Positions 6,224 to 19,819 of a DNA stretch of 64,000 nucleotides are shown here, one piece after another (within the stretch, counting starts at the first letter, position 1; each line of letters starts with the position of its first letter). The notes under the pieces were generated by a model, which made no database searches, was not told the origin of the DNA, and saw only the letters and a list, made by a program, of their open reading frames with translations. The position numbers and the translations under genes were made by a program. Source of the DNA: Rhizobiales bacterium IMCC20636 (GTDB taxonomy: Bacteria; Pseudomonadota; Alphaproteobacteria; Rhizobiales; GCA-2746425); assembly GCA_016865015.1 (NCBI GenBank), contig CP018226.1:1581001-1645000 (forward strand), in the 5' to 3' direction.

Positions 6224-6814
6224 TCAGGCGGCTAATTGTTTTATGGATTTTCGAACAGCGGTCAGTTTTGCTTCGCCATCGAACATCAGGCGGTCTGCCG
6301 CGATGATTTCCACATCGTCAATGCCAATGAATCCAAGGACATGTTTCATGTAATTGGTGGCAAAATCCACCTCTGAGCCACTGCCGACCCCACCTGAGGT
6401 GATGACCAGATAGGCGCGTTTGCCTTTCAGAAGGCCGATAGGTCCGTTTTCCGTGTAGGAAAAGGTCTCACCGGTGCGGCAAATCTGATCAATCCAGGCC
6501 TTGAGACTGGCAGGAATTCCGAAATTGTATATTGGCACTCCGATGACCAGAGTATCGGCCTGACGGACTTCCTCGATCAAGGCATCAGAGGTTTGCAGCG
6601 CTGAAACGTGTTGATCAGAGCGGTCCTCCTTTTTTGTCAGGTTGGCTGCTACCCAGTCATCATTTACAACTGCTATGCCGGATGCCACATCACGATGGAA
6701 GATCTGGGACGATTCCGACGTGCTGAGACTTTGAACCAATTCCGAGACAAGCTGTCTGCTGACGGACCCGTTGTGCCGAGCGGACGCGTTGACTTGCAAT
6801 ATTGTATGTTTCAT
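6224..6814 (-). CDS. azoR: FMN-dependent NADH-azoreductase
   Basis: Flavodoxin-fold quinone/azo reductase of 196 residues, the usual AzoR length. It opens MKHTILQVNASARHNGSVSR, the phosphate-binding loop for FMN (SxR...SxS), and contains GVPIYNFGIPASLKAWIDQICRTGETFSYTENGP, which matches the central AzoR signature. Expected role is two-electron reduction of quinones and azo compounds, protecting against thiol and electrophile stress. Cytosolic and monocistronic. The divergent gap to the response-regulator gene (6815-7098) would hold both promoters. Confidence 0.92.
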   Translation of the reverse strand: MKHTILQVNASARHNGSVSRQLVSELVQSLSTSESSQIFHRDVASGIAVVNDDWVAANLTKKEDRSDQHVSALQTSDALIEEVRQADTLVIGVPIYNFGIPASLKAWIDQICRTGETFSYTENGPIGLLKGKRAYLVITSGGVGSGSEVDFATNYMKHVLGFIGIDDVEIIAADRLMFDGEAKLTAVRKSIKQLAA

Positions 6815-6894
6815 CTTTTTCTTTCATCGGTGATTTGCGATGAAGGACAATTAGGGGTGAGGAGCACGCTTTGATAGCCACACTCTTCGCAACA

Positions 6895-6919
6895 CACTGT
6901 CTCCCATGGAGAAACAGTG
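6895..6919. promoter_or_regulatory. Inverted repeat between azoR and the response-regulator gene
   Basis: CACTGT (6895-6900) and ACAGTG (6914-6919) form a perfect 6-bp inverted repeat with a 13-base spacer whose inner bases TCC/GGA also pair. It could be an operator for azoR or for the response regulator. No run of T follows closely, so a terminator is less likely. Confidence 0.35.
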
Positions 6920-7098
6920 CCGCTTTATTGTTGTGTTTTTACATGTCGATCCGTTGCCAAGTTGCTTGAGTGCCGATCTCCACAGTTAGACGTGAAATCT
7001 CGATTCGATGTGGACCAGGTCCGGATTAGAAGGCACTGTTCCAACTCACAGGCAATACACTTGAATTGATTTTGCGGTCTTGACCAAAAGGTAGCGCT

Positions 7099-7707
7099 AT
7101 GAAGTCCGTCTTTGTGCTCGATGACCACAAGCTGTTTTTGACGGGACTGCAGCTTCTGCTCCGCTCGATTGGCAAAGATATCGAGTGCAAAGTATTCGAT
7201 GAAGCCGGGCTGCTCCTGACGGCATTGGAGCAATCTTCGCAAAACCCTGATCTTGTCATCATGGATTTCTACGTGCCTGGCTGCAATGTGCCCGATCTGA
7301 TCGCACAGCTGTCTGACGACTTGCCGACCTGTAAAATCCTCATTGTCAGCGCGTCCATCAATCCATCTGATGAGCGCCGGTCGTTGGATGCAGGTGCGGA
7401 TCTGTTTCTCAGCAAGGCAGTGGATCCACTGGTTCTGGTCGAGTCTGTTTCGTCGCTGTTGAAAGGAGACACCCCGGCCAGTGCAACGCCTGCCAGCACC
7501 TTGTTGGCCAAACGGTTTGAATTGACGCCCAGGCAATTGGAAATTCTCGTTCTCGTATCCAAGGGCTTGTCAAACAAGGAAGTTGCGAGGCTGTTGTCAA
7601 TTTCACCGGAAACAACAAAGTCTCATTTGCGGGATATTTATCAAAGGTTCGGTGTGGCAAACCGAATAGAAGCAATCGATTTCGCGCGGTTGCATGGGCT
7701 CAACTGA
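7099..7707 (+). CDS. NarL/LuxR-type response regulator
   Basis: Two-component regulator of 202 residues. The receiver domain (1-120) has the acidic pair LDDH, phospho-acceptor Asp56 in VIMDFYVPG and Lys in LSKAVDP. The C-terminal LuxR helix-turn-helix runs about 140-200 (LTPRQLEILVLVSKGLSNKEVARLLS...TTKSHLRDIYQRF). It is convergent with the hybrid kinase gene and overlaps it by 8 bp, so the two are probably partners. Because the kinase ends the lanthipeptide operon, this regulator may act on that operon; this is inference from position. The start ATG has a weak AAAAGGTAG leader. Confidence 0.9.
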   Translation: MKSVFVLDDHKLFLTGLQLLLRSIGKDIECKVFDEAGLLLTALEQSSQNPDLVIMDFYVPGCNVPDLIAQLSDDLPTCKILIVSASINPSDERRSLDAGADLFLSKAVDPLVLVESVSSLLKGDTPASATPASTLLAKRFELTPRQLEILVLVSKGLSNKEVARLLSISPETTKSHLRDIYQRFGVANRIEAIDFARLHGLN

Positions 7708-9586
7708 CATCGCCTCGTTGCCAGCTCTTTTCAACAATACGCAGGGCCATAGCCAAATCCTCCTGTAGAAATGGCTTCTTCAGAAAACGACCTCCCTGGT
7801 CCTTGATGTGAAGTATCATGTCCGGGTTGTCATGCTGCGAAATGATCACACATTTTGGCATGAGGTTTTTTGGACTCCGGGCCAGGAAATCGAACACCGT
7901 CAAGCCATCTCCCAGATCAAAATCCACAATCAGAAAATCACTGCGCTCCAGCTTGTCATTCGACGCACCAATGATCTCAGACCGTTTGCCGAGGGTTTCA
8001 ACATCGTAGCCAAGCCTTTGGATCATTTCAGCTATGGTGATTTGGTAGTGCAAACTATCCTCCACCAGCAGAATGCGTCGCCTGGTGTGAGAGGCGCTGG
8101 ATGTGACTGCCATTGAGGCGTCAGAGTTCTGATCCCTGACTTCAGGGTTATCGGCTGCCAGAGGCAGTATAGCTCCAAATAGGGAGCCGTGGCCCTCGCG
8201 ACTTTGGAGTGTTACTTGGCCGTTCATTGCGGTCACAAGATCGTTGACGATGGACAATCCCAACCCGACATTGCCGGATTGGTTAATTTTGCGAGCATCA
8301 ATTTGATAGAATGCGTTGAATATGTGTTGTTGCTCGTTGGGTGAAATACCGGGTCCGGTATCGGCAACGACAATCTCAGCCAATCCGCCGGAACGCCGCC
8401 GGACACCAATCGAAATCCGGCCTTTTTCTGTATATTGAACCGCATTATAGACGAGATTACGCAGAACACGTTCCAAAAACTCCGGATCAGCCCGCAGGAA
8501 CACGGATGTCGGCACATATCTGAGTTGCAGCCCGGCATCCTCGACCACTGGATGCAACTCGTTGACAAGCCTGCTGATCAATGAATGAACATCCGTACTC
8601 TGAAACTTGGGGGCAGGCAGGTTTTCCTTGATCCAGGCTAGTTGTGACACGCTTTCAATCAGACCTTGCGCCGAACGCAGGCATTGCTGGGCAGCTGCTG
8701 TTGAAGCTTTGGCAATCCTTGGCAGGCGCTGATGTGTCAAATTGTTGAGGTGCAGCGCGAGAGCACTCAAGGGTTGGCTGAGATCATGGCTGATCGAGTG
8801 CAAGAAGCTTTCCCGAAGCTTTGTCTCCTTGAGCACGCGCTCCTGTGCCTGATTTTCCAGGGACATTGACCGTTCCAGCGCGAATGATTGCTGCTCAAGC
8901 AACACGCTGGTTTCACGCAGTTTGTAGGCAAGATTGGCTTCGTTGAGATGCTGAATGTGGATGGCGTAGCCAATGCCGATGGAAACAACTGTCGCAAACA
9001 ATAATGTGCAGATCAGAAGCCCCCAGAACGGGGGCTGCTCCCAAAAACAATAGGCGATGCTGGGCAGGAACAGAATGGTACGGCCGAGGATCAAGGCTGG
9101 CAAAAGCCGGGAATTCAAAGTTGCCGAGCCGATGCCGGCGGCTGTCGTCAGGACTATGATCAACAGCATCCGCTCATAGATCAAAGGTGACATGAACAAT
9201 AAAATGCAAAATCCCCAACCGAACATCACGAGCAAATCTGCAAAGATGATCAACCGTTCTGCGATATCCGATTGAACAGGACGATTGGATTGCTGCCGAA
9301 TTTGCAGGAACAGCAAGATGATCGTTCCGATAATCGTGAAGGTGATTTGCACTGTTAAGAAGGCTAACGATGCGATTGGCCCAAACCCTGCGGTGAGGGC
9401 AATCAATCCAACAAAAATTGCGGTGTTGATATTGATCAGCATGCCGATCCAACCGTCAAAAATTGCAGATTCCAGGAGTGCCAACTTGATCTCAACAGGG
9501 CGGTCAGCCTGACTGAGCAGGAATATCTTCTTGGGCAGTTGCGGGGAAAACCGAATGGACGTGTCTTTTTTGCCGTGCTCAGCCAT
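7700..9586 (-). CDS. Membrane hybrid histidine kinase
   Basis: About 628 residues. The N-terminal half holds roughly six membrane helices (about 45-210) and no large periplasmic domain. Next come a coiled linker and a HisKA H-box with His267 (SISHDLSQPL). The ATPase domain has NLVYNAVQYT, DTGPGIS and GLGLSIV. A C-terminal receiver (about 505-628) has LLVEDS, phospho-acceptor Asp in LIVDFDLGDG and KKP. Start ATG 9586 overlaps the upstream membrane gene by 8 bp, which puts it last in the operon led by the lanthipeptide precursor. The H-box type (HDLSQPL) is shared with orphan hybrids that pair with NarL regulators. The ligand is unknown; sensing of the peptide or of envelope stress is speculative. 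Confidence 0.88.
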   Translation of the reverse strand: MAEHGKKDTSIRFSPQLPKKIFLLSQADRPVEIKLALLESAIFDGWIGMLININTAIFVGLIALTAGFGPIASLAFLTVQITFTIIGTIILLFLQIRQQSNRPVQSDIAERLIIFADLLVMFGWGFCILLFMSPLIYERMLLIIVLTTAAGIGSATLNSRLLPALILGRTILFLPSIAYCFWEQPPFWGLLICTLLFATVVSIGIGYAIHIQHLNEANLAYKLRETSVLLEQQSFALERSMSLENQAQERVLKETKLRESFLHSISHDLSQPLSALALHLNNLTHQRLPRIAKASTAAAQQCLRSAQGLIESVSQLAWIKENLPAPKFQSTDVHSLISRLVNELHPVVEDAGLQLRYVPTSVFLRADPEFLERVLRNLVYNAVQYTEKGRISIGVRRRSGGLAEIVVADTGPGISPNEQQHIFNAFYQIDARKINQSGNVGLGLSIVNDLVTAMNGQVTLQSREGHGSLFGAILPLAADNPEVRDQNSDASMAVTSSASHTRRRILLVEDSLHYQITIAEMIQRLGYDVETLGKRSEIIGASNDKLERSDFLIVDFDLGDGLTVFDFLARSPKNLMPKCVIISQHDNPDMILHIKDQGGRFLKKPFLQEDLAMALRIVEKSWQRGDVS

Positions 9587-10091
9587 GCTTGAAGCTCTTC
9601 GGCGCCATTCCAAAACAAATGTGGAAGACCCAGTAAAACATCCAAAGAAACACAGGAATAAATATAACGGCGCGTATCAACCTGACATAGGCGGAAATCG
9701 CGAATGACTGATCGGGAAATACTGAGGAATTGATGCCGGGCATTTCAATGCTGACATCATAAAACCGCGAGAGCACCAACACCGATATGATTGTAATGGG
9801 GGCAGCCAGAGCAAAGGCACCCAGCAGATATTGCGGAAACGTCACCAGTCCGATGCGCCAGAACAATGGTGCAATGAAAGTAGCAAAAAAAAGCCCCAAA
9901 AAAGAGTCCCACAAGGAGTCGAACCAGGATGAGATTCCGATGCCGAACAAGCGCAATGTATTGTCCATGGCGAGCCCGACCACAAACATGACTGCGGATG
10001 CCACAACAAGCGAAAACATGAAGACAGACCACCGGAAGGGTTGCATTTCTGGTGGTCTTTTCAGCCGCAATACGGGGGCTTTGATGCTCAC
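9579..10091 (-). CDS. Unrecognised polytopic membrane protein in the lanthipeptide operon
   Basis: About 170 residues with four or five hydrophobic segments (WSVFMFSLVVASAVMFVVGL, FLGLFFATFIAPLFW, LGAFALAAPITIISVLVL, AVIFIPVFLWMFYWVFHI). I prefer GTG 10091, which has GGGAGG ten bases upstream; the open frame reaches TTG 10109. It resembles small Yip1/DUF-type membrane proteins only in topology. It sits between the small secreted protein and the kinase gene, overlapping the latter by 8 bp. It could serve immunity, export or signalling; nothing in the sequence decides. Confidence 0.7.
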   Translation of the reverse strand: MSIKAPVLRLKRPPEMQPFRWSVFMFSLVVASAVMFVVGLAMDNTLRLFGIGISSWFDSLWDSFLGLFFATFIAPLFWRIGLVTFPQYLLGAFALAAPITIISVLVLSRFYDVSIEMPGINSSVFPDQSFAISAYVRLIRAVIFIPVFLWMFYWVFHICFGMAPKSFKHG

Positions 10092-10154
10092 GTCACAGAC
10101 ACCTCCCAATTGGGTGCAGCCCCAGTTTCTACAAGGCAGCGGATTGTAGCTGCG

Positions 10155-10439
10155 CTAGTTGCAGATTTTGACCTTGGCCGCGCATCGCCACAGTAATGGG
10201 TTCTTGCAGTCATATTCAACTGCTCCCCTCATTCGCAACCTGAACTCGCCTGGATAGAGGTCTTCGAGTTGCGCCATCAATGATATTCTTGCATTGCGTT
10301 TGGCTATGCGCTGCGATGTCGCTGTACCGCTGCTTGTGACAGTGACGGTCTTGCAGGCTGCTGCCTCTGCCGGTTTGTCAGGTGCCGTCATGCCCAGACA
10401 CCAGACAATCGACAAGGCCATGAGAACCGGCGCTCTCAT
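10155..10439 (-). CDS. Small secreted cysteine-containing protein coupled to LanM
   Basis: 94 residues from ATG 10439. The frame is open further upstream inside lanM, but this ATG opens a clear signal peptide (MRAPVLMALSIVWCLGM...) with cleavage expected after AEAA. The mature part, about 67 residues, begins ACKTVTVTSSGTATSQ and has four cysteines in a C...C...WRC...C pattern, suggesting two disulfides in the periplasm. Its ATG overlaps the lanM stop as ATGA, so translation is coupled. I do not recognise a named family. A chaperone, immunity or partner role for the peptide is inference from coupling. Confidence 0.75.
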   Translation of the reverse strand: MRAPVLMALSIVWCLGMTAPDKPAEAAACKTVTVTSSGTATSQRIAKRNARISLMAQLEDLYPGEFRLRMRGAVEYDCKNPLLWRCAAKVKICN

Positions 10440-13402
10440 GTGCTTTCCGCCCGGCGGGTCGTTATAGGCAGGGAGTTGAATGACATCAGAGGTATCATTG
10501 ATGCTGGCTGCTGGTCGGCAAGTCCCAGAGCTGCCATGCCGATTCCTGCCATGCCGTCCATCAAGCCGGGGGAAAAAACGCCATTGATGGTGCCACAACG
10601 AGCACCATGCAAATTCAATCGTGTCAAGATTTCTCCAGTCAGACTGCTGATCTTGCCGGCATCGCTCTCCGGCAGGGACGGCGCAACGTGCTGCAAAGCC
10701 TGCAGGGTGCCCATTGTGCCGTGACACAGACTGTCATCTGAGTAGTCATGTGCCTCCAGTCTGGATATCAGTTCTCGAGCTATCGCTTCCGTGCCCTGGT
10801 GCCTGTTTGGGTCATTTGCCAAAAGTTTTCCTGCGAGACCGTTACACCAGGCAATCGGTGTGTCCTGGATATTTCTCAGTTCAAGTTCGGGCGCTGTTCG
10901 CACAAGCTGCTCAAGCAAATCAAGACCTTTCGTGCATATGTCTTTCAGTTTTTGGTCATTGTTTTGGCTGGCTCGGGCCAATGCCAGTTGCAAGCCTTCA
11001 GCCCCATGCGCCATTCCTGCAGCGGCAAATAGTTGGTGCGTGGTCTCATCGTTCCCGATGGCTTTCTCCAGCCTGTCCACGATCTCTCCTGCGATTGATT
11101 TTTGAAGAGCGTAACTGGAGTGATCATGCTGAATTGCGAGCAGCAATCCCGCCAACCCATCGACCAATTCCAAGGGTGCTTCAGAAAGCTGAAGGTTGGT
11201 GATGGTCGACATCATCTGTCGGCTGACTTCCAGACATTCAAGCTCAGGGTATTCTTTGGCCAATAGGGGAAGTGCGAAAAGCAAACCTCCGGTTCCGGAA
11301 AAACCGCCAAGTCCCATCCCGGTGTTCTGTTGCAGGGTGAGTGCAGACAGAAGCTCAACTGTTGCAGCCTTCGCAATTGTCTGAATGGACGCATCATCCA
11401 GGACACGACCGGCCTGTGACAGAAATAGGGCAATGCCCGGCAGCCCGCTATACAGATCCAGCCCGGCCAATTGGGCTGTCAAAGTGCCGCCGCTACCTTC
11501 CTGCACAGTGAACCAGCTTGCATGACCATTTGTGACAAGCGCGTGCTCACAGATCTCCAAGGCTGCGCTCTGCATGACTGCCAATGCTGTTTCTTGAATG
11601 CCTTTTTGAGGTTGTTTGCTGGAGGGCTGGCTGGTCGCGGATGCAACTGAACGCGTTATCGAGTGATCGGCTTTGGTCAATGCAACTTTTATCAGCCAGA
11701 ATTGACGTTGCATATCTTCAGGGCCCAATTCGGTGATGATCTGTCGGGTGATCGCCATGCCGATCTGGGGAAGCCTGTTTTCCATCACCTGACCGTCGCA
11801 TGCCAAGATGTCCTGACTGTTCACTGTCGTTTCAAAATAGGGCACATCGTCGCGCCATAGCGCAGCCATTTCGGACGGGCGCAGTGTTGTTAGAATATCA
11901 GACTGGTTTGCTTCCTTCAGAGCATCATTGAACCAGCTCTGCTTTTTTTGTTGGCTTTCAAAAAGGTCCGGATGTGAGCCATCAGCCAACAGGAACAAAT
12001 AGGTCTGGGTTCCACGAATGACGATCCGAATGGGGTCGCTGCCAAAGTCTGCAAGAGGACCATTTGCAGAGAGAAGCGTCTCCCGGTTTTCTTCAAGAAC
12101 GGCGTAGGCTTTCCGAAAGCCCTCCAGGACCTCATCCAAATATGGCTCGGGTGAGATTCTCTGGTCATCCAACATGGGCACGTTGGCGTCGCCTGTCAGT
12201 GTTTGATGCTTTTCCACCAGCCTCATCTCATTGGATCCGGCATCGTGCCACATGGGAATTGCAAAAGGGGTTTCCTGGCCTGCGGTGTCGGACATTCCAG
12301 CCAGATTGATTGTATTGTCGCCGTCACTCGCCGCGGTTTTGCGAACGGGGAGGAGCCCTGTTGCGGCAACAGAGGTGTCATGGATTCTGCGCAGAGCTTT
12401 TGAGGCTTGGGGTTGGGTGGCATCCGGGCGCAGGTCACCAGCGAGAGGGTGAAACAACGTCTCAAGGTCAATAATGATGGGCCAACCACCCTGTGCGATC
12501 AGATTTTCGCTGTGCAGGTCGGTCAGCCCAAGCACGCGGGCAATCGCCAGCAATGCGCCAAGCCGGTTGAAGTAATCTGCAAGTTCACCTGCATCTGATA
12601 CGGCCCGATGATCAATGTGTTCGCACCAGCCGTGTGATCCCATATTCAACGCATCAACGCTGCGTATCATCTCGCTGCCGCAAGCGGTGTTGAACCAGGA
12701 TGCGAAACGCCTGTAATGCACTTCAACCGCCAGATTGCGCGGCTTGTAGACCAGTGTCCGTCCGTTGCTGAATTCAATACTTCTGACCGATCGACCGTGG
12801 CGGTGCGTATCTCCCAAAGATGATCGGATGGCAGAGATTGTATCGTTTTGCTCACATGAGAAATGGCTGTTGAGCTGCTCCCAGTCTGTCTGCAGATGCT
12901 CAAGAAACTCCAACGCAGCGACACTCCAATTTTGGCAGATGGCGCTTGTCAATTCACACAGCAGAGGATTTCGTCTTAAAAGCGCTTCAGAAAATTCAGA
13001 ATCCTGAAGGCATTCAGCGAAGATTTCATAGCTGTTGCTACCATTTTGAGCGTCGAGCAGGCCTGTGGCCTGTGCGGCGGAAAACTCCAGGACGACAGTG
13101 CGCGATACCTTGGAAAAAACAGTTTGCCAGAGCGGCTCGACCATTTCGGCATAAATGGAGCTTATGTGATCGGGATGAATGATTCCCAGTTGCCAAAGCT
13201 GTGTGATTTTTTGACCAATTGGTTTTGTTGAAAGTTCAACAAGTGGCCATGCGACGTGGGCGAATTCACATCCTTCTGCTGGCAGAGAGTAGCGTTCCTG
13301 CGGGGACGCATTCGCAAAGGCATCGCCGAAAAAAGTCTCCCAATCTGCGTGCTGCTTGCAGTCTGCAATTCTCAATTCGTCTGCATTGCTTTGGAAGGTC
13401 AT
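10436..13402 (-). CDS. lanM: Class II lanthionine synthetase (LanM)
   Basis: Bifunctional RiPP enzyme of 988 residues that phosphorylates and eliminates Ser/Thr and then cyclises Cys onto the dehydro residues. The N-terminal dehydratase domain shows the kinase-like motifs VYKPR (about 218-222, Lys220), DLHSEN (295-300) and IIDLETLFHP (about 310-319). An elimination-region motif IRIVIRGTQTY is at about 458-468. The C-terminal LanC-like cyclase starts near 645 (LYSGLPGIALFL) and has AHG (798-800), AWCNG (Cys853) and LCHG (Cys893-His894), the three zinc ligands. All catalytic motifs are present, so the enzyme should be active. The gene lies 137 bp downstream of a candidate precursor gene on the same strand and overlaps the next gene by ATGA. 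Confidence 0.96.
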   Translation of the reverse strand: MTFQSNADELRIADCKQHADWETFFGDAFANASPQERYSLPAEGCEFAHVAWPLVELSTKPIGQKITQLWQLGIIHPDHISSIYAEMVEPLWQTVFSKVSRTVVLEFSAAQATGLLDAQNGSNSYEIFAECLQDSEFSEALLRRNPLLCELTSAICQNWSVAALEFLEHLQTDWEQLNSHFSCEQNDTISAIRSSLGDTHRHGRSVRSIEFSNGRTLVYKPRNLAVEVHYRRFASWFNTACGSEMIRSVDALNMGSHGWCEHIDHRAVSDAGELADYFNRLGALLAIARVLGLTDLHSENLIAQGGWPIIIDLETLFHPLAGDLRPDATQPQASKALRRIHDTSVAATGLLPVRKTAASDGDNTINLAGMSDTAGQETPFAIPMWHDAGSNEMRLVEKHQTLTGDANVPMLDDQRISPEPYLDEVLEGFRKAYAVLEENRETLLSANGPLADFGSDPIRIVIRGTQTYLFLLADGSHPDLFESQQKKQSWFNDALKEANQSDILTTLRPSEMAALWRDDVPYFETTVNSQDILACDGQVMENRLPQIGMAITRQIITELGPEDMQRQFWLIKVALTKADHSITRSVASATSQPSSKQPQKGIQETALAVMQSAALEICEHALVTNGHASWFTVQEGSGGTLTAQLAGLDLYSGLPGIALFLSQAGRVLDDASIQTIAKAATVELLSALTLQQNTGMGLGGFSGTGGLLFALPLLAKEYPELECLEVSRQMMSTITNLQLSEAPLELVDGLAGLLLAIQHDHSSYALQKSIAGEIVDRLEKAIGNDETTHQLFAAAGMAHGAEGLQLALARASQNNDQKLKDICTKGLDLLEQLVRTAPELELRNIQDTPIAWCNGLAGKLLANDPNRHQGTEAIARELISRLEAHDYSDDSLCHGTMGTLQALQHVAPSLPESDAGKISSLTGEILTRLNLHGARCGTINGVFSPGLMDGMAGIGMAALGLADQQPASMIPLMSFNSLPITTRRAEST

Positions 13403-13479
13403 CTTCTTGTCCGGTTTCCACCTTGCTAGACTGGCTTGCGTTCAGGCGCTTCGTTTCACAAAAAACCATGAGAATTTCA

Positions 13480-13520
13480 TGCGCCGACAACAGTGCTGTG
13501 TGCATTCTATCGGCGGCGCA
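13480..13520 (-). promoter_or_regulatory. Stem-loop between precursor gene and lanM
   Basis: TGCGCCG (13480-13486) and CGGCGCA (13514-13520) form a perfect 7-bp stem with a 27-base loop that contains ACAGTGCTGT. It lies in the 137-bp gap between the precursor and lanM. No poly-T follows on the minus strand, so a processing or attenuating hairpin that keeps precursor mRNA above lanM mRNA is more likely than a full terminator. Confidence 0.4.
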
Positions 13521-13539
13521 TAAATCGGCAGGGTGATTG

Positions 13540-13911
13540 CTACAGCCCGGTTCTGATGATCAAGCAGCAAGCTACGCCGCCGGTGAAACCGCTTGTTCCC
13601 TTACAGCCGACGCCATGCGTGAAGCATCCGCCGCGCGCGATTTCATCGCCACTAATGGCTTTGAGTTGATTGATTCTTGCCTGGCCAATTTCCTTTTTTT
13701 GAGCAGGCGTCATTTCTGCAAGTTCCTTGTTGAGCATTTTCTTGAGCTCAGCAGGTTTTGCCTTTTTGGTGCTCAACGTCTTTGATTGCGCCATTCGCTT
13801 TTCCGAGGCAGGCATTGCGCTGGTGTTCTGCGCTGCAATCACCGGCGTGATGAAATTTGGCAAGGCAACAGCCAATGCCAACATTGCAGTTGTGGTTTTG
13901 GATTTGGTCAT
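13540..13911 (-). CDS. Candidate lanthipeptide precursor with Sec signal (LanA-like)
   Basis: 123 residues from ATG 13911 (GGAG six bases upstream; an in-frame ATG at 13923 would add MEKT). Residues 1-27 form a textbook Sec signal (MTKSKTTTAMLALAVALPNF, cleavage after VIA or VIAA). Residues 28-93 are charged and helical, Lys/Glu-rich and cysteine-free (KPAELKKMLNKELAEM), like a RiPP leader. A double glycine follows at 94-95. The last 28 residues contain all four cysteines of the protein (96, 103, 115, 116) with Thr98, Thr106, Ser107, Thr110 and Thr121, and are rich in Gly. That is the composition of a LanM substrate core. A Sec signal on a class II precursor is unusual. Modification is inferred. 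Confidence 0.8.
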   Translation of the reverse strand: MTKSKTTTAMLALAVALPNFITPVIAAQNTSAMPASEKRMAQSKTLSTKKAKPAELKKMLNKELAEMTPAQKKEIGQARINQLKAISGDEIARGGCFTHGVGCKGTSGFTGGVACCLIIRTGL

Positions 13912-13989
13912 GGTCTTCTCCATTCTGGTTCCCCCGAAAACCAGAATGGACTGTTACAGAGCTCGGCAATATCCCCCAGATGGGGCAGA

Positions 13990-14016
13990 CCCAATGGGGC
14001 AGGTCAGACCATTGGG
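13990..14016. promoter_or_regulatory. Inverted repeat upstream of the precursor gene
   Basis: CCCAATGG (13990-13997) and CCATTGGG (14009-14016) form a perfect 8-bp inverted repeat with an 11-base spacer, so the half-sites are 19 bp apart, about two helix turns. It ends about 79 bp before the chosen precursor start, in the right place for an operator. The neighbouring NarL-type regulator is a candidate binder. Confidence 0.5.
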
Positions 14017-14170: not shown

Positions 14171-15085
14171 TCAGGCCGCCTGCGTATCTGTTTCAACCGC
14201 CTGAAGTTCCGGGCCAAGGCCCATCAGGTGGCACACCGCAAACACGATTTCTGACCGGTTGAGGGTGTAAAAATGAACATCCTCGAAACCCCGTTCTGCC
14301 AGATCAAACACCTGCTCAGCCAGAATTGCGGTTGAGACCAGCCTTTGCGTATCCAGATCATCATCCAGGCCATTGAAGGCCAGCTTCAGCCAATAGGGCA
14401 CATTCGCGCCACAGCGCTCGGCGAATGATCGGGTCTGCGAAAATTTGTAGACGGGAAGCACGCCCGGGATGATCGGAATGGAAATTCCAGCTGCGCGGAC
14501 CCGCTCGACAAACGCTTCAAACAGGTCATTGTCGAAGAAGAACTGGGTGATGGCCCGGCTGGCTCCGGCATCCACCTTGCGTTTCAGATTATCCAGCTCA
14601 TGTTCCCAGCTCGGGCTGTCCGGGTGGCGCTCGGGATAGGCCGCGACGGAAATTTCAAAACCGCCACGTTTGGCAATGCCGCCCACAAGATCAGCTGCAT
14701 TCTGGTAGCCTTGCGGGTGCGGCACAAAATGACTGCCACCATTTTGCACGTCTCCGCGCAGCGCCACAATATGTTTCACGCCAGCCTTGGCGTAACCATC
14801 GACCACCGCATCGACTTCGTCCCGTGTGGCATCGACACAGGTCAGATGCGCCGCAGGGCGCATGGATGCGTTTTTGGCCAACTCCGCAACTGTCCGGTGT
14901 GTGCGCTCTCTGGTGGTGCCGCCAGCGCCATAGGTGACGGACACAAAGGACGGGCCAAAAAGGCTCAACCGGTTTATGGCCGACCAGACCTGCTTTTCGC
15001 CAGCATCTGATTTGGGCGGAAAGAACTCGAATGAAATACGCTTGGCGTGTTTCTGATGGGATCGGAGGTTTGCAACAATAGACAT
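14171..15085 (-). CDS. metF: 5,10-methylenetetrahydrofolate reductase
   Basis: Flavoprotein of 304 residues that reduces methylene-THF to methyl-THF for methionine synthesis. It shows SFEFFPPKSDAGE near 20, where the conserved Glu serves catalysis, VSVTYGAGGTTRERT near 50, HIVALRGD near 110 and AITQFFFDND near 180, all standard MetF motifs. Length is typical for the bacterial enzyme, with no regulatory domain. The ATG shares one base with the stop of the ArsR-methyltransferase gene (TGATG), so the two are translated together. The gene lies directly after the lanthipeptide locus, read in the same direction. Confidence 0.96.
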   Translation of the reverse strand: MSIVANLRSHQKHAKRISFEFFPPKSDAGEKQVWSAINRLSLFGPSFVSVTYGAGGTTRERTHRTVAELAKNASMRPAAHLTCVDATRDEVDAVVDGYAKAGVKHIVALRGDVQNGGSHFVPHPQGYQNAADLVGGIAKRGGFEISVAAYPERHPDSPSWEHELDNLKRKVDAGASRAITQFFFDNDLFEAFVERVRAAGISIPIIPGVLPVYKFSQTRSFAERCGANVPYWLKLAFNGLDDDLDTQRLVSTAILAEQVFDLAERGFEDVHFYTLNRSEIVFAVCHLMGLGPELQAVETDTQAA

Positions 15086-16198: not shown

Positions 16199-19100
16199 TC
16201 AGCTCTGGCCAAATCCGCCTGCCGTTGGTGTGACAATCGTTACGGCTTCGCCAGCTTTCAGAATGGTCTGGTCGCAGCCTTTGAGTTCCTCGATCTGTCC
16301 ATCAAGGCGCCGCACATACGTGCTTCCCAGCTGACCTGGCTCGCCACCTTCAAGCCCATGGGGCCGGATGGTGCGGTGTGAGGACAGAATGGCGCAGTCC
16401 ATTTCTTCCAGAAAACGAATTGTACGCTCAGTGCCGTCGCCCGCAGTCCATTTCCCTTTTCCGCCTGTGGCTCTGCGGATATGAAAATCTTCCAGCAATA
16501 CGGGAAAGCGGAATTCCAGGATTTCCGGATCAGTCAGCCGCGAGTTTGTCATGTGTACATGGACACCGGAGGTGCCGTTGAAGCCATGTCCTGCGGGGGA
16601 GCCGGAGCAGATAGTCTCGTAATATTGGTACGTGTCGTTGCCGAAGGTGAGGTTGTTCATGGTGCCTTGGGAAGCCGCCATGACACCTAATGCGCCGAAC
16701 AAGGCGTTGGTGACGTGCTGACTGGTTTCCACATTTCCCGCCACAACCGCCGCCGGGTAGCTTGGCCGCAGCATGCAATCATCAGGGATGATGATGTTGA
16801 TCGGTTTCAGACAGCCTGCATTCATGGGAATGTCGCCATCGACCATCACGCGGAAGCAATAGAGGACCGCTGCACGCGTGACCGGTTCGGGAGCGTTGAA
16901 ATTGGTTGCCTGCACCGGGCTGGTTCCGGTGAAATCAACCGTCGCTTCGCGCTTCTCCCGATCGACCGTGATCCGGACCTTGATGACCGCACCCTGATCG
17001 GTGGGATATTCAAAGCTGGAGTCCTTCAGCACTTCGATGACCCGGCGTACGCTTTCCTCCGCATTGTCCTGAACATGAAGCATATAGGCCTGCACCACTG
17101 GCAGGGTGAATTGCTCCACCATTTTTGCCAGTTCCTGAACGCCCTTTTCATTGGCCGCGATCTGAGCTTTCAAATCTGCAACATTCTGGACCACATTGCG
17201 CACGGGGTAGGGGTGGTTAGTCATCAGATGGACCAGGCCTTCTTCCTGAAACGCGCCCTGATCGACAAGCTTGAAATTATCAAACAGGACACCTTCCTCA
17301 TCCACATTGGTGGCCAAAGGCGTCATCGAGCCAGGGGCTGATCCGCCGACATCCGCGTGGTGCCCACGACTGGCCACCCAGAAGCGGACAAAGCTGTTGG
17401 TTTCATCGAAGACCGGTGTGCAGACCGTGATATCCGGCAGGTGGGTCCCGCCATTATAGGGCGCATTGAGAGCAAACACGTCGCCGGGTTTGATGGCGCC
17501 CTTGTTGAGACGAATTATGGTTTCCACCGAACGGTCCATTGACCCCAGATGCACCGGCATATGTGGGGCATTGGCGATCAGGCTTCCCGTGCCGCTGAAC
17601 ACAGCGCAGGAAAAATCCAGCCGTTCCTTGATGTTCACCGAATAGGCGGTGTTCTGCAGGGTGACACCCATCTGCTCGGCAATAGACATGAACAGATTGT
17701 TGAAAATCTCCAGCAGAACCGGATCTGCGCCGCCACTTGCAGCTTCCGTCCCGATGGCAAATCCGCGATCGAGTTTCACGGTGCGGTTCAAAATGATGTG
17801 ATTTTTGACGTTGACTTCGGCAGTCCAGCCCGGCTCGACCATGATGGTCTGATGCGGTTCGATGATAAGGGCGGGGCCTGAGATGCGATGTCCATAAGCC
17901 AGATTGGCGCGGGGAAAAATTCCGGTGCTGTGCATCTTGCCGCCGACAAAAACGTCAACATGCTGATCTGTTGCGGCCGGGTGCTGTGACCCGGCCATAT
18001 CAGCTTCATCGATTTCCGCTCCACCGCCGACGCCTTCAACCTCCAGAGACTCAACCACCAGCACCTTGTTTTCAAAAACAAAGCCGAATTGCTTTTTGTG
18101 TGCGGCCTCGAATTTCGAGCGCATCTCGTTGGTGTCGGACAAGGGGACCGGAATGGCACTGTCTGTCCCGTCATAGCGAATATGGGCAAAGCTGTTGATG
18201 TGCATGTCGCTATTGTCGACGCCTTGCTGGGTCAATTCTTCGCGCACGCGCTGTTCAAGCGTTTCCTGAACGAGTTCAAGTTCTGATTCAGAGTCAGAGC
18301 CCAGCTCCAAGGCTATGGTTTTATTGCGGTTTGCACGAATGTCGGCCAGTCCCATTCCATAGGCGGAGAGGATGCCGGAGAAGGGGTGAACAATGACTGT
18401 TTCCATGCCCAGCGTGTCCGCAATGGCACAGGCATGCTGGCCGCCAGCGCCGCCAAAGCAGGTCAGTGCGTAATCCGAAACATCATAGCCGCGCTGAACT
18501 GAAATCTTCTTGATTGCATTCGCCATGTTCTCAACGGCGATTTGCAGAAAGCCTTCTGCAATTTCTTCTCCCGAATGACCATCACCAATGTCGTTTGCAA
18601 GGGCTTCAAACCCTGCGCGGACGGCTTCGACATCCAGTTGCTGGTCTGCGGTCTCGCCAAAAATGGCCGGGAAGAATTCCGGGCGTAATTTGCCGAGCAT
18701 CACATTGGCGTCGGTAACGGTGAGTGGTCCGCCACGCCGGTAGCAGGCTGGTCCCGGATTGGCACCTGCACTGTCAGGCCCGACCTGAAAGCGGCCCTTG
18801 TCGAAATGCAGAATGGATCCACCGCCTGCGGCAACCGTGTGGATCATCATCATGGGTGCGCGCATGCGCACACCGGCGACCTCTGTTTCAAACGCGCGCT
18901 CCAGTTGGCCGTCATAATGCGAGACGTCGGTAGATGTGCCTCCCATGTCAAACCCGATGACCTTGCGATGCCCGGCTAGCGCCGATGTTTCCACCGCGCC
19001 GACGACACCGCCGGCAGGCCCGGACAGGATTGCGTCTTTTCCCTGAAACATATCTGCTGCCGTGAGGCCGCCGGATGATTGCATGAACATCAGCCGGGTA

Positions 19101-19819
19101 TCACCCTCGCCAATGTTCAACTCGCTGGCAATCTGGTCCACATAGCGCCGCAGGATTGGCGACAGATAGGCGTCCACCACGGTTGTATCTCCGCGTCCGA
19201 CGAGTTTCATCAAGGGCGATACATCGTGGCTGACGGAGATTTGAGAAAACCCGATGTCCCGGGCGATTTCTGCCAAAAGCTGCTCGTGCTCCGGCGCACG
19301 CCAGGAATGCATCAGCACAATGGCGAGGGAGCGAATGCCCGTGTCAAACACGGATTGCAGATCGCGCCTGGCAGTTGCCTGATCCAGGGCCTTTTCAACG
19401 GTTCCGTCAGCCTGGATGCGTTCATCCACCTCAACCACCGCTTCATAGAGCAGCTCAGGCTTGATGATCTCCTGTGCAAAAATGTCAGGTCTTGCCTGGT
19501 ATCCGATCTCCAGGGCATCGCGAAACCCTTTGGTAATCACGAGCAAGGTGCGCTCACCCTTGCGCTCCAGCAGTGCGTTGGTAGCGACGGTGGTTCCCAT
19601 TTTGACGGCTGCGATCTGGTCGGCCGGGATGGGCTTGTCAGCAGCAATATTCATAAGCTCACGAATGCCATGAATGGCGGCATCACGATATTGCTCAGGA
19701 TTTTCGGACAGCAATTTGTGGGCTTGCAGCGAACCATCAGGTTTTCGGGCAACTATGTCGGTGAATGTGCCACCGCGATCAATCCAGAAGTCCCATTTTC
19801 CAAATGTCTTACCGCTCAT
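16199..19819 (-). CDS. Fused hydantoinase A/B protein, 5-oxoprolinase-like
   Basis: 1206 residues, the length of full ATP-dependent 5-oxoprolinases, combining HyuA-like and HyuB-like halves. The first half opens [19 protein letters not shown], an ATP-grasp/actin-like nucleotide loop, and has [16 protein letters not shown] near 290 and [15 protein letters not shown] near 335. The second half starts near 690 ([37 protein letters not shown]) and contains [15 protein letters not shown] and RGHHADVGG. It would open a 5-oxoproline or hydantoin-type lactam using ATP. No separate hyu genes follow, and the cupin and TRAP genes downstream in the cluster probably share its substrate. Confidence 0.88.

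Follow-up and report, generated by a model that had tools for sequence, protein, structure and literature searches.

A candidate class II lanthipeptide cassette with a signal-peptide-like precursor start in Rhizobiales bacterium IMCC20636

Within a 64,000-nucleotide stretch of contig CP018226.1 from Rhizobiales bacterium IMCC20636 (positions 1,581,001 to 1,645,000; hereafter the window), six genes at 7099-13923 form a locus which we are inclined, on balance, to read as a cassette for a class II lanthipeptide, with a Sec-type signal peptide built into the precursor. These genes encode the precursor, the lanthipeptide synthetase LanM, a small protein, a membrane protein, a hybrid histidine kinase and a response regulator, and open reading frames and translations confirmed all six at the positions given by the initial annotation, an earlier reading of this DNA from its letters. 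That annotation had proposed a search for the same gene order in related genomes as a check. Indeed, the six genes, with order and relative strand kept, are found in G001 and G002 besides the window's genome (4.79 Mb, single contig), hence in three of five congeneric genomes, and because of this conserved order the locus is confirmed as real and beyond chance. Identities to the window proteins in G001 and G002 amount to 76% for the precursor, 71-72% for LanM, 73-76% for the small protein, 87-89% for the membrane protein, 85-86% for the kinase and 85-88% for the regulator.

The initial annotation did not contain the cassette borders, the conserved hairpins or, above all, the precursor start, which is likely Sec-type signal-peptide-like as judged from its sequence. 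The precursor consists of a signal-peptide-like segment at about residues 5-31, a variable linker, a charged leader ending in Gly-Gly and a 28-residue core, CFTHGVGCKGTSGFTGGVACCLIIRTGL, which holds all four cysteines of the precursor (Cys100, 107, 119 and 120). In an alignment of the three species, the N-terminal segment, basic at first and then hydrophobic, is almost invariant, and the core follows the consensus CFTxGVGCxGTSGFTxGVxCCxIIRTG with every Cys and Thr kept. Ala-rich candidate cleavage sites are located after residues 30 and 31, weaker ones after residues 18, 20 and 36, and the basic leader region (residues 32-97) contains 14 Lys/Arg and 7 Asp/Glu. The three precursors have N-terminal hydropathy values of 1.96, 2.11 and 2.07; when the same residues were shuffled 20000 times, 124, 146 and 245 of the shuffles, respectively, reached the real value. 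For comparison, candidate precursors were chosen by eye at 19 other proteobacterial LanM loci, and the 16 so obtained, which come from 13 of these loci, reach at most 1.40; one frame of locus L084 with a hydropathy of 1.56, about 6 kb from its LanM, was left out as a candidate. Hydropathy, shuffles, locus comparison and selection favour a putative signal on the precursor. The gene may actually begin at the second in-frame ATG, located at 13911.

Selection was assessed by rough ratios of nonsynonymous to synonymous substitution rates (dN/dS). Between the window's precursor and that of G002, dN/dS is 0.09 for the signal segment, 0.68 for the linker, 0.08 for the leader and 0.09 for the core, and the corresponding values for G001 are 0.04, 0.28, 0.07 and 0.05. 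Since dN/dS is low in signal segment, leader and core, these estimates indicate that purifying selection acts on all three, while a relaxed linker is seen in two of the three pairs; with segments this short and dS this high, the ratios are indications only.

LanM lies well above the cut-off of its family. It scores 644 bits against NCBIfam TIGR03897 (cut-off 304), and its Pfam domains DUF4135 and LANC_like score 355 and 123 bits, so that both the dehydratase and the LanC-like cyclase domain of a class II synthetase are present, as is a linked precursor with leader and Ser/Thr/Cys core. Additionally, residues 90-971 align with the solved LicM2, including the cyclase motifs WC.G and CHG, in line with the initial claim of a LanM with catalytic motifs. 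No second LanM was found in the window's genome when searched with its own LanM protein, and its local alignments with LanM frames of other proteobacteria (19 compared) show identities of about 22-33%.

In the mechanism proposed here, LanM would bind the charged leader beside Gly-Gly in the cytoplasm, dehydrate Thr and Ser of the core (T102, T110, S111, T114 and T125) and close thioether rings with the four cysteines. The modified precursor would then exit via Sec and be cut by signal peptidase around residue 30-31, and cleavage after Gly-Gly may fall to an extracytoplasmic protease. With Sec export and an external protease, no C39 exporter would be needed, and the precursor's own Sec signal could thus explain the absence of a dedicated exporter gene beside it. 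Since about 70 residues separate the signal segment from the core at the C-terminal end, LanM may have time to act. The kinase-regulator pair would control the precursor operon, perhaps through a conserved block upstream of the precursor (Table 1). The more ambitious proposal of a Gram-negative lanthipeptide path in which Sec replaces LanT, LanM is done before or during translocation and the product is sensed by its own hybrid kinase appears rather unlikely as a whole.

Several points weigh against Sec export of a LanM product. Gly-Gly usually marks a site processed by C39, and a C39 peptidase to cut there was not found in the window's genome (PF03412, E <= 0.001), while G002, a carrier of the cassette, has one C39 protein elsewhere in its genome. 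Hydropathy alone is no proof of a signal. In the third species pair, G001-G002, dN/dS is 0.04 for the signal segment, 0.08 for the linker, 0.20 for the leader and 0.02 for the core, so the linker is not relaxed there. Absence of a linked exporter is common among proteobacterial LanM loci and hence gives weak support for Sec. Finally, the accessible part of an engineering study states that under Sec export the synthetase ProcM has little time to act and that translocation of modified lanthipeptides through Sec is poor (PMC5686179).

The most serious alternative, still an unlikely one, is an ordinary class II lanthipeptide whose hydrophobic start is an odd leader and whose export relies on an unlinked ATP-binding cassette (ABC) or type I exporter. 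A linked LanT with C39 is usual for class II systems without being strictly defining. Here, Pfam and NCBIfam detected no ABC exporter in the cassette, and a genome-wide search confined to the C39 domain (PF03412 at the above threshold), hence blind to ABC exporters that lack it, gave no match in the complete genome of the window (G000) or in G001, G003 and G004, in agreement with the initial statement that LanT/C39 is missing. That class II clusters normally include LanT, making the locus unusual, was weakened in turn: by a crude pattern, five of the 19 other proteobacterial LanM stretches carry an ABC ATPase-like frame, which is C39-like in one of these five, and 14 carry none, with the limits that some stretches end at contig ends and that the pattern can miss or add members (a different pattern marked one extra frame, in L061). 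Hence, absence of a linked exporter is not special, the missing LanT holds poorly as a mark of novelty and unlinked export may be usual, which suits this alternative, as do the Gly-Gly ahead of the core and the C39 protein of G002. In contrast, G000 and G001 carry the cassette yet lack any C39 domain, and the N terminus of the precursor is more hydrophobic than in the 16 candidates of other loci. The sole conventional-looking LanT arrangement among the 19 is that of L089, where LanM adjoins a C39-like ABC frame (6224-8386 and 8433-11033).

Less probable still is that the hydrophobic segment stays uncut and anchors the lanthipeptide in the inner membrane as ligand or partner of the linked kinase. 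The near invariance of the segment, beyond what secretion alone would seem to need, would fit such a role, and the kinase, part of the same insert, consists mostly of membrane helices and cytoplasmic domains with no large extracellular domain by hydropathy; however, Ala-rich cleavage candidates are at the right place, and binding between kinase and peptide would be hypothetical. That the precursor is simply a secreted Cys protein which LanM leaves unmodified, perhaps with disulfide bonds, would suit the signal-like start and the C-terminal cysteines but is very improbable in view of the adjacency to LanM, the joint presence or absence of both genes in all five congeneric genomes, a lanthipeptide-type build (leader, Gly-Gly, Thr/Cys core) and the lack of a second match to the precursor profile in the window's genome.

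The reading with a Sec-borne precursor can be set against known systems. Class II systems such as those of LicM2 and CylM (TIGR03897) share the two-domain LanM and a leader with Gly-Gly and Thr/Cys core, while the present locus differs by its signal-like precursor start, its C39-free genome and two accessory proteins that were found in this genus only. Bufferins and other ribosomally synthesized and post-translationally modified peptides (RiPPs) modified by MNIO enzymes are, as proposed here, made in Gram-negatives from precursors with Sec signals, with cytoplasmic modification followed by export, but they depend on MNIO enzymes and DUF2063 partners instead of LanM (PMC12452194, available portion); Pfam found neither MNIO nor DUF2063 in the six cassette proteins. 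According to the same portion, Sec signals are rare among bacterial RiPP precursors, and experimental proof that the natural host uses Sec exists only for bufferins. Engineered lanthipeptide display with an OmpA signal and ProcM joins a Sec signal and a LanM substrate in one chain, as is proposed for the locus; that system is artificial, N-terminal display remained largely unmodified and a C-terminal fusion was used, as far as the excerpt of PMC5686179 reports. LanM-like proteins of the CA_C0082 type, which lie beside agr signalling, resemble the locus in linking a LanM-family gene to a sensor system, whereas in the accessible text they lack the zinc motif and a linked precursor (PMC10301443); the residues of the motif and a precursor are present here.

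No case of a LanM precursor with a Sec signal was found in searches of an open-access library and, to that extent, the initial description of the locus as undescribed stands. Its description as distinct is upheld by the genus-only precursor and accessory proteins and by the signal-like start, and loses the missing LanT as an argument. While Sec signals in other RiPPs are already known (PMC12452194, in part), a LanM-linked precursor with a signal-like start is probably new. If the proposal is true, a natural peptide is both LanM and Sec substrate, a combination treated as a display bottleneck in the available part of PMC5686179. The timing of modification versus export would then become testable with the precursor-LanM pair, LanT-free delivery of lanthipeptides to the periplasm of laboratory Gram-negative hosts might be allowed, and genome mining should accept precursors bearing signal peptides.

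The flanks of the cassette in G001 and G002 are those of the window, with metF, an ArsR-type methyltransferase and an oxoprolinase gene on one side (the oxoprolinase/hydantoinase gene at 16199-19819) and a flavodoxin-fold gene and an amidase gene on the other. In G003, which is devoid of the cassette, about 170 bp lie between the two flanking genes: in the G003 stretch used, the match to metF runs to 14539 and that to the flavodoxin gene starts at 14712. Because the two genes adjoin there, the cassette is a single unit of about 6.8 kb including kinase and regulator, and its belonging to the metF neighbourhood was rejected. The flavodoxin protein has no close counterpart in G004 (32% over part). 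The G+C content of the cassette, 0.519, is close to that of the window (0.533).

Table 1 Features of the cassette, in window coordinates
Feature	Position	Strand	Basis
Precursor gene, 127 amino acids	13540-13923	-	Translation, three-species alignment, hydropathy and shuffles, selection
LanM, class II lanthipeptide synthetase, 988 amino acids	10436-13402	-	TIGR03897, Pfam, LicM2 alignment
Small protein, 94 amino acids, N-terminal hydrophobic segment, likely secreted	10155-10439	-	Hydropathy, model
Membrane protein, about four helices, start codon uncertain	9579-10109	-	Hydropathy, Pfam/NCBIfam scans
Hybrid histidine kinase: several N-terminal hydrophobic helices, HisKA, HATPase, receiver	7700-9613	-	Pfam, NCBIfam, hydropathy
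NarL-type response regulator	7099-7707	+	Pfam, NCBIfam
Hairpin between precursor and LanM genes	13476-13524	-	GCGCCG/CGGCGC stem identical in three species
Conserved block CCCATCYGGGGGATATTGC upstream of precursor	13966-13984	-	Conservation in three species
Inverted repeat across first ATG of precursor frame	13920-13949	-	Sequence, consensus fold

Both accessory proteins match their initial description. The small secreted protein had been called coupled to LanM, and in each of the three carriers the two reading frames share 4 nt. Its start was chosen at the ATG at 10439 (the mechanical list of open reading frames starts the frame further upstream), and the presumed mature part contains four Cys (29, 78, 86 and 93). 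A beta-alpha-beta-beta fold, weakly dodecin-like, is predicted for it with a mean predicted local distance difference test score (pLDDT) of 74, two of five models exceeding 70. Of the 368 matches that structure search returned up to E 10, none reached 0.001; HP1454 came first (0.059), followed by dodecins, which is a lead only; PDB sequence search gave only two weak matches, to a Staufen fragment (E about 0.007). The membrane protein, unrecognised before, indeed belongs to no family in the Pfam and NCBIfam scans, its PDB sequence search was empty and its model is poor (mean pLDDT 45). An immunity role for either protein would be a guess. Neither LanFEG nor LanP appeared in Pfam and NCBIfam scans of the six cassette proteins and the listed flanking genes, with no wider search made.

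The two-component system ascribed to the locus, a hybrid kinase with a convergent NarL regulator, is likewise substantiated, being linked in three carriers and lying inside the insert. The kinase probably starts at the ATG at 9586, and the two genes overlap by 8 nt at their stop codons (7700-7707) in all three carriers. That the kinase senses the cassette's own lanthipeptide product would be a fair guess. The conserved block upstream of the precursor is a candidate regulator site: with up to 3 mismatches, it occurs at 15 places in five genomes, three of which are the cassette sites, compared to none for a control pattern. As a chance estimate by hand of about 9 is at odds with the zero control, a regulon is not claimed and genome-wide enrichment is not shown. 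The inverted repeat across the first ATG points to possible translation control. For the hairpin, covariation neither proves nor refutes the structure since most outer pairs are invariant. Consensus promoters numbered 3 against 5.5 expected, none of them upstream of the precursor, and terminators 6 against 8.2 expected.

Distribution was examined in overlapping genome samples, the counts of which must not be summed. LanM occurs in 3 of 61 genomes of the relatives set, all from the window's genus (5 genomes there). In the order sample (397 genomes), 6 genomes exceed the TIGR03897 cut-off, three of them of this genus (13 at E <= 0.001); in the class sample (385 genomes), 8 do so, the window's own among them (20 at E <= 0.001). 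A three-species LanM profile matched 10 of 398 genomes of the phylum sample, own included. The precursor profile matched 3 of 100 relatives and 2 of 385 genomes of the class sample, namely the window's own and G701; the latter match (E 1.3e-6, profile positions 48-124) lies within an 806-residue open frame and was dropped as a likely composition match. Searches for the membrane protein (150 genomes) and the small protein (111 genomes) hit three genomes each, in both cases within the window's genus. With the G701 match dropped, precursor, small protein and membrane protein are hence genus-only in the samples searched. In a contig collection, a first scan gave no relative and a second only the contig of G001. 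Plasmids yielded no match to precursor or membrane protein; LanM matches occurred in 192 plasmid records, all below 60% identity (27-32% in the five top rows).

Other LanM loci offered some further observations. LanM-linked precursors of two alphaproteobacterial families (L061:7674-8024 and 7942-8367; L062:11143-11430 and 11738-12043; L065:7610-7891; L066:12119-12400) have a common short core type, GSPxCxxTxGCYCxxT, after an acidic leader. Candidate precursors with repeated core-like units lie near LanM at L058:12907-13302, L059:12371-12718 and L084:7020-7331, the unit being IDADASVSAAA...C in L058 and L059 and a looser AAA...C in L084, comparable to multi-core RiPPs. In L063 (G741:C1:4572122-4574997), LanM is apparently split into two overlapping frames that correspond to the dehydratase part and the cyclase part.

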